From: a virus
IMG/VR virus record: IMGVR_UViG_3300017598_000081
Coordinates: 1 to 20,595 of that record
DNA: 20,595 nt
Reading direction: 5' to 3' (one strand)
Part shown: positions 2-7,562 of the stretch, piece by piece
How the letters are laid out: each line of letters opens with the position of its first letter
Numbering within the stretch: the first letter of the stretch is position 1
The notes under the pieces: model-generated
The model's database searches: none
What the model saw: only the letters and a program-made list of their open reading frames with translations
What the model was told of the DNA's origin: nothing
Translations under genes and position numbers: made by a program

Positions 2-1072
2 GGTGACACGGGCTTGACTGGTCCGCAAGGTGACACGGGCTTGACTGGTGCTACTGGTCCTGCGGGCGACACTGGTCCTCAGGGGCCTGCTGGTGTTAAG
101 GGTGACACGGGCGCTGATGGTGCTGATTCTGTCGTGCCTGGTCCGCAAGGTGACACGGGCTTGACTGGTCCTGCTGGGGCTGACGGGGCTGACGGGGCTG
201 ACGGTGCTACTGGTCCTCAGGGCGATACTGGTCCTGCTGGTGCTGATGGTGACGACGGTGCGCAGGGGATCCAGGGTGACACTGGGGACGCTGGTGCTGA
301 TGGTGCACAGGGGATCCAGGGTGTTAAGGGTGACACTGGGGACGCGGGTGCTGATGGTGTGCGTGGGGCTTTGTGGTCTACGGGCACTGGTGCCCCGTCG
401 TTCCTTTTCGGGGACGAGTTGGGCGACCAGTATTTAGATACCTCTACGGGTGACGTTTACTCGTGTGATGGTGCTGCGTGGAATCTCGCCACTAACATCA
501 CTGGTCCTGCTGGTGCGGCAGGCGCAGCGGGTGCTGACGGTGCTGACGGTGCTGACGGTGCCGACGGGGCCGAGAATGCGCTTCCGCTTACAGGCGGGAC
601 GCTCACGGGTGGGCTGACAGGCACGACGATTAACGCCACAACGATTGAGGCAGTGACAAACCTTGAGGTGGACAACGACGACGGCAACGCCACTCTTTCG
701 TTGCGTTCAGACAATGCGGCCGTTATTGCGTTCACAGAGAGCACGTCGCCCACAACATATAATGCTGGCATCTCTTCTAATGCTGCGTCCCCGTTCATTC
801 TGTACAAGGGGCTTCCAGTTTTCGGGCAGGCTGTGCTCTCCGTGAACTCTAGCGGTGATGTGGATATGGGTGCTGCTACTTCGGTGGAGGTGCCTGATCC
901 TACGGCTGATGCTCATGCGGCAACGAAAGAGTATGTGGACCAGGGGTTCGTGTTCCACGGGGCGACCGCTTCTACGGCTCGACCCACTGGCGTTTTACAT
1001 GTCGTTTGGGTTGGGTCTGTTGAACCAACGAATGCTGACACTGACGACGACATTTGGATTGATACCGCATGA
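2..1072 (+). CDS. Collagen-like tail fiber protein (5' end cut by window edge)
   Basis: This is a tail fiber or minor tail protein. The reading frame is open from the first bases, and Gly-X-Y triplets already run there, so the TTG at 14 is almost certainly an internal Leu codon and the true start lies outside the window. Collagen-like triplets (GPQGDTG, GADGADG) cover about 2-358 and again 500-573. They flank a short non-collagen module (360-500) with the YLDTSTGDVYSCDGAAW-type motif seen in many phage fibers. After 574 comes a beta-rich C-terminal part (LPLTGGTLTGGL, then DPTADAHAATKEYVD), typical of tail-fiber shaft and tip regions. The triplets probably form a trimeric stalk projecting from the tail. 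Stop is TGA at 1070. A second fiber-like gene follows 18 bases later. Exact receptor role is unknown. Confidence 0.85.
   Translation, partial: GDTGLTGPQGDTGLTGATGPAGDTGPQGPAGVKGDTGADGADSVVPGPQGDTGLTGPAGADGADGADGATGPQGDTGPAGADGDDGAQGIQGDTGDAGADGAQGIQGVKGDTGDAGADGVRGALWSTGTGAPSFLFGDELGDQYLDTSTGDVYSCDGAAWNLATNITGPAGAAGAAGADGADGADGADGAENALPLTGGTLTGGLTGTTINATTIEAVTNLEVDNDDGNATLSLRSDNAAVIAFTESTSPTTYNAGISSNAASPFILYKGLPVFGQAVLSVNSSGDVDMGAATSVEVPDPTADAHAATKEYVDQGFVFHGATASTARPTGVLHVVWVGSVEPTNADTDDDIWIDTA
20..49 (+). repeat. 30-bp direct repeat copy 1 in collagen-coding region
   Basis: Bases 20-49 are identical to 140-169. Both encode part of the Gly-X-Y stalk (GPQGDTGLTG). A shorter partial copy lies at 2-22, and GATCCAGGGTG-type units recur near 267 and 312. 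The repetition extends to the DNA level, which favours unequal recombination and length change of the stalk. Confidence 0.8.
140..169 (+). repeat. 30-bp direct repeat copy 2 in collagen-coding region
   Basis: This is the second exact copy of the segment at 20-49, in the same reading frame and 120 bases downstream. The spacing is a multiple of nine bases short by six but remains a multiple of three, so recombination between copies would keep the frame. Confidence 0.8.
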
Positions 1073-5996: not shown

Positions 5997-7181
5997 ATGA
6001 ACACACGTAAAGCATTTGAGGCGCGGCAGGCTGTCGTTGCTAAGTTGAACGCGGCGAACGACGAAGTTCGTAGCGAAGAGGGCCCGTCTGCTGAGCAGGC
6101 TTCGGCTATCGAGGCGCTGGAGACTGACCTTCGGTCGGCTACTGAGGCTATGGAAGCGGCTATTGTCGCTGACGAGGCTGACAAGCGTTTTGCTGATGCG
6201 TACGCTGCTTCGGGCTTCGTTCCTGTCGCTCGTGAAGAGCGGTCGGCTGCTGACGCTGAAGTTGCGCAGCTTGAGGCGTTCCGTGCGGGTGAAGTCCGTT
6301 CGGTCGATCTCATGCCGAATGAGGTTCGTTCGCTCGGTACTGGTGCCGCTGAGGGTGCCGATACGGTGCCGTCGAGCATCTACGGTCAGATCATTGCGGG
6401 CATCCGCGAGTTCAGCACCGTTTTGGCTGCTGGCGCTACTGTCGTGAACACGACTGGGGGCAACGAAATCAGCGTGCCTGGTCGTAACGCTTACCCTTCG
6501 GCTGCTCTCATCGCTGAGAAGGGTACGTATGGCAAGAGCAACGGCACTTACCAGGAGAACGCCGTTCTTCGTAGCTACAAGTACGGACTCATCAGCCAGG
6601 TTTCCAACGAGCTTCTCGCTGATTCTCAGTTCAACATTGCTAGCGAAGTTGCTACCCTTGGTGGGGAAGCAATCGGGCTGGGTATCGGCGCTGCGTTTAT
6701 GAACGGTGACGGTTCGGACAAGCCTGAGGGCATTACCACGAAGGCTGCTGACGACACGTTTGCTGGCGCTGACGCTATCACTGCGGACGAATTGATTGAT
6801 GTTGTTCATTCGCTGGGCCGCCCGTACCGTAACAACGCTGCGTTCATCATCAGTGATGATACCCTGAAGCTTATTCGTAAGCTCAAGGGCTCTGACGGGC
6901 AGTACATGTGGCAGGCTTCGCTTACCGCTGGTGAGCCCGATACCATCCTGGGCCACCCTGTCTACGTTGATGCTGAAATGGCTGCTCCTACCACTGGTAA
7001 CAAGAGCGTCCTCTTCGGTGACATCAAGCGGGCATTCATGGTCCGTTTTGCTGGTGGAGTGAACGTCGCTCGTAGCGATGAGTACGGTTTCGACACCGAC
7101 CTGGTGTCGTGGAAGTGGAGCACTCGTGTTGACTCCGCTATCGTGCTTCCTGAGGCGTACGTCCTCTGGGACCAGGCCTGA
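5997..7181 (+). CDS. Major capsid protein, HK97 fold, with N-terminal delta domain
   Basis: This protein forms the capsid shell. The start is ATG 5997, chosen because GAGGAGGA (5981-5988) sits eight bases upstream; the frame is open back to 5922 but that part lacks a ribosome-binding site. The product is 394 aa. Residues 1 to about 110 are charged and helical (RKAFEARQAVVAKLNAAN, then EALETDLRSATEAMEAA), as expected of a scaffolding delta domain cut off by the neighbouring protease. The mature part holds typical HK97-family stretches: ISVPGRNAYPSA, the E-loop region, LISQVSNELLADS, FMNGDGSDKPEGI, ILGHPVYVDAEM and VLFGDIKRAFMVR. Cleavage near residues 105-115 (VRSVDLMPNEVRSLG) is a guess. It is followed by the largest noncoding gap of the window. 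Confidence 0.95.
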   Translation: MNTRKAFEARQAVVAKLNAANDEVRSEEGPSAEQASAIEALETDLRSATEAMEAAIVADEADKRFADAYAASGFVPVAREERSAADAEVAQLEAFRAGEVRSVDLMPNEVRSLGTGAAEGADTVPSSIYGQIIAGIREFSTVLAAGATVVNTTGGNEISVPGRNAYPSAALIAEKGTYGKSNGTYQENAVLRSYKYGLISQVSNELLADSQFNIASEVATLGGEAIGLGIGAAFMNGDGSDKPEGITTKAADDTFAGADAITADELIDVVHSLGRPYRNNAAFIISDDTLKLIRKLKGSDGQYMWQASLTAGEPDTILGHPVYVDAEMAAPTTGNKSVLFGDIKRAFMVRFAGGVNVARSDEYGFDTDLVSWKWSTRVDSAIVLPEAYVLWDQA

Positions 7182-7216
7182 TTTTAGGCTGATATTTGCG
7201 TGAGGGCGCATTGTTT

Positions 7217-7265
7217 GGGTCCGCCCCTTCCCTTCCTCTGGCTTTGGCTGGAGTGGGGCGGGCCC
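7217..7265 (+). terminator. Long two-part hairpin downstream of capsid gene
   Basis: The outer arms GGGTCCGCCCC (7217-7227) and GGGGCGGGCCC (7255-7265) pair over 11 bp with one G-T pair. Inside, CTCTGGC (7236-7242) pairs with GCTGGAG (7247-7253) around TTTG. This is the strongest predicted fold I found. The T tract after it is poor (CATCTT), so it may be a partial terminator or a 3' stabiliser of the abundant capsid message. Confidence 0.55.
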
Positions 7266-7270
7266 ATCTT

Positions 7271-7316
7271 GGTAGGTAGCGCTGGAGCGCGTGGGGTTCG
7301 ATTCCCTGTCCTACCA
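7271..7316 (+). ncRNA. tRNA-like element lacking an anticodon arm
   Basis: This 46-base segment looks like a tRNA with its anticodon arm removed. GGTAGG (7271-7276) pairs with CCTACC (7310-7315), followed by an A (7316) in the discriminator position. T7277-A7278 sit where the tRNA position 8-9 linker would be. A 4-bp D-like stem GCGC/GCGC (7279-7290) closes a TGGA loop. The T arm is TGGGG-TTCGATT-CCCTG (7292-7308), with the canonical TTCGA loop and the right seven-base distance to the acceptor end. No full-length tRNA can be drawn, because no upstream bases pair better with the 3' arm. It could be a degraded tRNA gene, an RNA processing signal cut by RNase P, or a 3' end protector. All function is inferred. 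Confidence 0.4.
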
Positions 7317-7343
7317 CTGTTCTATTTGCCTGAGGAGGCTGTT

Positions 7344-7562
7344 ATGAAAGTACGAGCATTGATGAACTTCGCTACTACGGGTGGCGGGTTTGAGGCTGAC
7401 GAGGTTTACGAGATGCCTGAGAAGGCGGCGCGTGCGTTTGTCGCTTCGGGTCACATGGTTGCGGTTGAGGCTGTGAAGGCTGCTCCTAAGAAGACGGCTG
7501 CTAAGAAGGCTGCTGCTCGTAAGACGGTTGCGGTTGTCGAGACTGCTGCTACTGATCTCTGA
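7344..7562 (+). CDS. Small Lys/Ala-rich protein after capsid gene
   Basis: This is a 72-aa protein. The start is ATG 7344, with GAGGAGG at 7332-7338; the same frame is open back to 7200 but that extension reads through the hairpin and tRNA-like element and is rejected. The N-terminal half (MKVRALMNFATTGGGFEADEVYEMPEKAARAFVASG) resembles short phage proteins often coded beside capsid genes. The C-terminal third is a run of Lys and Ala (APKKTAAKKAAARKTV) like the tail of histone H1 or bacterial HU-like proteins, so it may bind DNA or RNA. Its location between capsid and connector suggests a head-associated role. I do not recognise a named function. Confidence 0.8.
   Translation: MKVRALMNFATTGGGFEADEVYEMPEKAARAFVASGHMVAVEAVKAAPKKTAAKKAAARKTVAVVETAATDL

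Follow-up and report, generated by a model that had tools for sequence, protein, structure and literature searches.

A tRNA-like element lacking the anticodon arm downstream of a phage capsid gene, and related miniature tRNA mimics between the genes of other phages

Positions 7271-7316 on the plus strand of the viral DNA analysed here (the window: all 20,595 nucleotides of IMG/VR record IMGVR_UViG_3300017598_000081) hold a real tRNA-like element without an anticodon arm, as direct reading of the sequence, folding, a descriptor scan with shuffled controls and a covariance model (R1) indicate. Its shared architecture makes it a likely member of a class of "mini-tRNAs", miniature tRNA look-alikes that are widespread between phage genes and apparently undescribed so far. 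On balance, we favour the interpretation that the element is a processing mark for RNase P, and perhaps also for RNase Z, placed between the capsid message and the downstream message.

The 5′ half of the element follows U7270 and consists of the acceptor strand GGUAGG (7271-7276), UA (7277-7278), GCGC (7279-7282) and the loop UGGA (7283-7286). The 3′ half continues with GCGC (7287-7290), GUGGGG (7291-7296), the T loop UUCGAUU (7297-7303), CCCUGU (7304-7309) and the acceptor strand CCUACC (7310-7315), followed by A7316 and C7317. GGUAGG and CCUACC form an acceptor of six Watson-Crick pairs, or seven when U7270-A7316 is counted. The D-like hairpin (7279-7290), which is evident from sequence and fold and has counterparts with similar loops in other phages, has a 4-bp stem and a shrunken UGGA loop within a D region of 14 nt. 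The T arm (7291-7309), recognized from the sequence and by covariance models, combines a perfect T loop with a stem of three G-C pairs and three G-U wobbles, its outer half being weak (G-U, U-G, G-U). The distance from the T loop to G7271 is a tRNA-like 12 bp. In tRNA numbering, U8-A9 and T54-A58 are in place and positions 27-48 are absent. A73-C74 completes the 3′ acceptor segment (7310-7317); a U occupies the position of C75, and position −1 is also U.

The minimum free energy structure (−19.5 kcal/mol) is exactly this three-way tRNA-like shape. Sequence and fold thus bear out the initial annotation, which had described an acceptor GGTAGG/CCTACC plus A, a linker, a 4-bp D-like stem with TGGA and a T arm with TTCGATT, and had noted that the anticodon arm and variable loop were missing. 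The spacing of seven bases that it gave from T arm to discriminator applies in a 5-bp T-stem register and in no other. The folding energy itself is unremarkable (z −1.1; 32 of 200 shuffled sequences folded equally well) and is also weak for other class members, and it was dropped as proof. Since the energy is ordinary compared with shuffles, it is the tRNA-specific layout, not thermodynamics, that makes the case for the element.

Both strands were scanned with a descriptor that calls for the T loop TTC[AG]A, no fewer than 11 coaxial pairs in T stem and acceptor together, and a GG within the D region. It gave one match in the window, compared with 0.0205 per dinucleotide-shuffled window; once the acceptor also had to measure 7 bp and the D hairpin to contain 4 or more Watson-Crick pairs, two matches arose in 2000 shuffled windows. 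The initial annotation had also proposed a covariance search with a custom model; in such a search, model R1, built from 15 elements of other phages with the window excluded, found the element with 35.5 bits (E = 9.8e-8 at 7275-7315; E = 0.15 for the runner-up match), a score partly helped by the common GGUAG acceptor through which the members of the model had been found. The structure-dominated model R2, free of this acceptor bias, recovered as its best window match the T arm only (13.9 bits, E = 0.068) because the D region measures 14 nt, not 11. ARAGORN reported no tRNA gene in the window and made only spurious calls in relaxed mode, and neither RF00005 (searched to E = 10) nor any other known Rfam family matched the window. 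The element lacks both the anticodon arm and the recognition by ARAGORN or Rfam that characterize a canonical tRNA gene. Features of a tmRNA are missing as well, there being no RF00023 match and the third acceptor pair being U-A, not G3-U70.

The element lies within the 162 bases that separate the major capsid gene (5997-7181) from the next gene (7344-7562), both on the plus strand, and ends 27 nt before the start at 7344. That a capsid gene precedes it, as initially annotated, was confirmed: the product is an HK97-type major capsid protein (phrog_10, E = 2.2e-65) with tblastn matches to Pontimonas phage phiPsal1 and phiC31. Between the capsid stop and the element is a strong hairpin with a 12-bp outer stem (7216-7266, plus strand), which ends 4 nt before the element and is possibly a 3′ end cap or an attenuator. 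The downstream gene encodes 72 amino acids (phrog_2616, function not known) and is preceded by the Shine-Dalgarno sequence GAGGAGG at 7332-7338. At the left end of the window (2-1072), a collagen-like Gly-X-Y repeat protein of the tail fibre type is encoded.

The window derives from a phage of the phiC31-like actinophage kind, its terminase and capsid being 50% and 33% identical, respectively, to those of phiC31, and its capsid 33% identical to that of phiPsal1. The sole near relative found (L205, 92% terminase identity) has a sequence that stops before the capsid. Capsid-alignment scans of viral and genome contigs gave relatives at 28-43% identity; approximately 240 loci with related capsids (30-43%) were examined, and no mini-tRNA of the window's type occurred among these capsid relatives; in 1.49 Mb of their loci, every descriptor match lacked the D-loop GG. 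Exact or near DNA matches to the site were absent from the phages and viral_contigs collections, and a scan with the capsid as single protein gave no match. In the comparison of capsid-downstream gaps suggested in the initial annotation, which covered relatives at approximately 30-43% identity, the element was absent. In most of these relatives the capsid gene is followed by a hairpin and by nothing resembling a tRNA, and such a hairpin is seen whether or not a tRNA-like element accompanies it. In a Frankiales MAG prophage with a related capsid, a complete, initiator-like tRNA-Met(CAT) (L232:5279-5356) sits between the capsid hairpin and a phrog_2616-like gene, which is the exact position of the window element. 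Two further loci (L334 and L374) have, ahead of the capsid gene, a "mini-tmRNA" of 80 nt that matches RF00023 with E = 3e-23 and 2e-26 and with approximately 290 model positions deleted. Since R2 recovers only the T arm and no orthologue was found, the window element may be a divergent or fading member of its class.

The class is defined by 11-13 coaxial acceptor and T-stem pairs, a UUCRANN T loop, a D region of 10-18 nt with GG and no anticodon arm. Its members are 39-47 nt long and lie in the intercistronic gaps of many unrelated phages; the window element, with 7+6 pairs, a 14-nt D region and UGGA, has this architecture, and it too stands between co-directional genes, its 27 nt to the next start being within the class range of about 27-50 nt. 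A first wide-gap pattern scan returned mostly ordinary tRNAs with GGTAG in the D loop and was discarded, after which the gap was narrowed. The narrowed pattern (GGUAG acceptor and a gap that leaves no room for an anticodon arm) matched 95 viral contigs. T-stem pairs 49-51, which the pattern left free, form in nearly all of the 70 different short elements, and at two of these three positions each of the four Watson-Crick types occurs; further pair counts were set aside as proof, since those sequences had been selected for pairing. With its three wobbles, the T stem of the window element is weaker than that of nearly all class members. When whole records were searched, multi-copy clusters were found, with 43 elements in ten phage loci compared with 0.4 in shuffles, and in L593, L594 and L597 one element stands between each of several consecutive ORFs, their stem sequences being unrelated. 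Adjacency to capsid genes was considered as a rule for the class and rejected, major head genes accounting for only 3 of the 40 genes after mini-tRNAs. Our search of the openly accessible PMC literature found no description of such elements. Separately, dense mini-tRNA-like arrays with a spacing of approximately 100 nt occur on the reverse strand of L591 (G025:C1:24000-35000), where there are no clear genes.

Two of the phages that carry such elements, Indlulamithi and Fowlmouth, are mycobacteriophages grown on M. smegmatis. Indlulamithi has 13 elements, all on the coding strand and 12 of them in annotated gaps; most start 5-13 nt past a stop codon (two at 135 and 168 nt), with 29-48 nt between their ends and the following start codon. 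The remaining element overlaps gene 53 at its annotated start. Because annotated starts overlap mini-tRNAs here (L601) and in the region of genes 43, 47 and 56 of L607, these start codons have probably been called too early. The elements are unannotated in Indlulamithi, Fowlmouth and Cuke. When orthologous gaps were compared among Fowlmouth, Cuke and MrMiyagi, both bases differed in 17 stem pairs, a single base differed in two that still paired, and no pair was broken, a count in which broken partners may be under-represented, as both partners were found by the same descriptor; one of the eight gap pairings was made from order together with stem sequence, and some Fowlmouth and Cuke gaps gave no descriptor match. 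An orthologous element with a GGGUAG acceptor, present in Indlulamithi, Fowlmouth and Cuke, has the sub-architecture of the window element; its D hairpins read CUC-UGGU-GAG, CCGA-UGGU-UCGG and UCAC-UGGU-GUGA, so that the stem covaries while the loop is constant. D hairpins with a UGGU or UGGA loop on differing stems are found in these three phages and also in cyanophage elements of the Syn5 group.

In Syn5, S-TIP28 and related cyanopodoviruses, an element lies approximately 130-170 nt before the capsid gene, between the scaffold and capsid genes in the Syn5 group, and a GC-rich hairpin immediately precedes it; the P60 element is a variant whose acceptor is GCUAG/CUAGC. Cyanophage elements end in UA, not R-C, which would fit their hosts, since cyanobacterial RNase P RNA is not known to make the CCA contact. 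Upstream of the capsid region of cyanopodoviruses we also observed Glutamine-II riboswitches (L206:1037-1089, L214:1126-1179 and L154:695-747), which stand shortly before the tRNA-like element where one exists. In L210, L212, L213 and L215, the position of the Syn5 element upstream of the capsid is taken by a hairpin that they share and whose loop region, CACCTCAGAGT[CA]GGAC, is conserved. The mini-tmRNAs are a further form, namely the tRNA-like domain of tmRNA with the entire mRNA-like part replaced by a short hairpin. They were found at L334:1884-1966, L374:2273-2354 and at least about 90 distinct sites among L376-L494. Among the matches listed, G3-U70 is present in 89 of 90 and A73 and C74 in all 90, and acceptor pairs 4-6 covary. 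Major head genes make up 8, and portal genes 5, of the 38 genes that follow mini-tmRNAs.

RNase P reads the coaxial helix of acceptor and T arm, uses a distance of 12 bp from the T loop as its ruler, makes contact with R73-C74-C75 and favours U at position −1; model hairpins of acceptor and T arm alone are good substrates and are correctly cut, and pre-tmRNA, the phage M3 and C4 RNAs and T4 gene 32 mRNA are natural ones (PMC11143913). On the favoured reading, the window element is a miniature mimic that has dropped the decoding half of tRNA and retained what the enzyme reads, namely the 12 bp of acceptor and T stem between the T loop and the cut, the T loop itself, the D-loop GG for the elbow, A73-C74 and U-1, with U in place of C75. 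The presence of R73-C74 after all 21 elements scanned in Indlulamithi (12 of 12) and Fowlmouth (9 of 9) agrees with the RCCA contact of RNase P RNA. In the mechanism we propose, host RNase P would cut the polycistronic late RNA between U7270 and G7271 and so end the capsid message 4 nt past the hairpin at 7216-7266, a position at which 3′ exonucleases should be slowed; the downstream message would also be released. As a conjecture, RNase Z or another 3′ endonuclease may cut after A7316, which would give the downstream message a new 5′ end approximately 27 nt before its start codon. Among the three roles offered in the initial annotation, that of a processing signal for RNase P or Z is the best supported, because similar elements recur in many phages as intercistronic marks with compensatory evolution. 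Protection of a message end, the second, is plausible as a consequence of cleavage and not as a rival to it, since a cut at 7270/7271 would leave the capsid message ending in a 12-bp hairpin.

The third role, a decayed tRNA, would make the element the functionless remnant of a full phage tRNA gene after the capsid gene that lost positions 27-48. This is a plausible history, given a layout that corresponds to a tRNA from which the variable loop and anticodon arm are gone while U8, A9, the 4-bp D stem and T54-A58 remain, the full tRNA-Met at the same site in L232 and the three wobbles in the T stem. However, decay would not spare the acceptor and D stems, which are perfect, and it leaves unexplained the anticodon-less forms that are retained and co-evolve in other phages; we therefore regard it as unlikely. 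A passive 3′ end or message-stability structure, uncut by tRNA enzymes, would suit a site that adjoins a strong hairpin and follows the gene with the highest expression, but a plain hairpin would suffice for that purpose, whereas class members keep the tRNA-specific T loop, D-loop GG and R73-C74, and this makes the idea improbable. Slightly less credible again is a precursor of a small stable tRNA-like RNA acting in trans, for example as a decoy that diverts nucleases or enzymes that bind tRNA: the elbow of the structure is complete and the L591 arrays are dense in non-coding DNA, but elements of the Indlulamithi type, one per gap, tight behind stop codons and each with its own stem sequences, fit action in cis. 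Chance similarity is very improbable at the low rate in shuffled windows, as is an attachment site that arose from the 3′ end of a tRNA gene in the host: although attP sites often contain such ends, the core would copy the tRNA 3′ end without the matching shortened 5′ acceptor and D hairpin, the element lies inside a late operon and inspection of the ORFs of the 20.6-kb fragment revealed no integrase, as initially noted.

Taking processing by RNase P as the preferred explanation, we lean slightly towards a wider proposal, in which many unrelated phages have adopted, independently or by descent, mini-tRNAs and mini-tmRNAs as RNase P punctuation that cuts operons into single messages. If true, this would reveal a hidden layer of phage RNA processing signals that escape gene annotation and tRNA-finding programs, link late gene expression to RNase P and explain why the small genes of such phages are spaced by regular gaps of 90 nt. 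That mini-tmRNAs keep the alanine identity without the tag would then pose a second question.

Several known systems resemble the window element in part. The tRNA-like domain of tmRNA, which is processed by RNase P, shares the acceptor, a reduced D region with GG, the T arm and the missing anticodon arm, but the window element is without the G3-U70 alanine pair. M3 RNA of phi80, C4 RNA of P1/P7 and T4 gene 32 mRNA are phage RNAs cut by host RNase P (PMC11143913); unlike the class described here, they are not repeated intercistronic miniature tRNAs. Armless mitochondrial tRNAs likewise lack a whole arm, but it is the D or T arm, with the anticodon kept. Closer in proposed role is mascRNA of MALAT1 (listed in Rfam as mascRNA-menRNA), an anticodon-poor tRNA-like structure after an RNA, at which a cut by RNase P defines the 3′ end of that RNA. 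The likeness extends to the tRNA-like form and the proposed definition of a 3′ end, whereas MALAT1 is a eukaryotic lncRNA and the window element stands in a phage operon, with no triple helix and no Rfam match, and is therefore an analogue and not a member. Mitochondrial tRNA punctuation likewise uses tRNA structures as cutting marks between the genes of a polycistronic transcript, but these are functional full tRNAs, whereas the phage elements have no anticodon arm and do no decoding. If the proposed punctuation is true, the phage elements would be the bacterial-virus counterpart of both mitochondrial tRNA punctuation and MALAT1 end formation.
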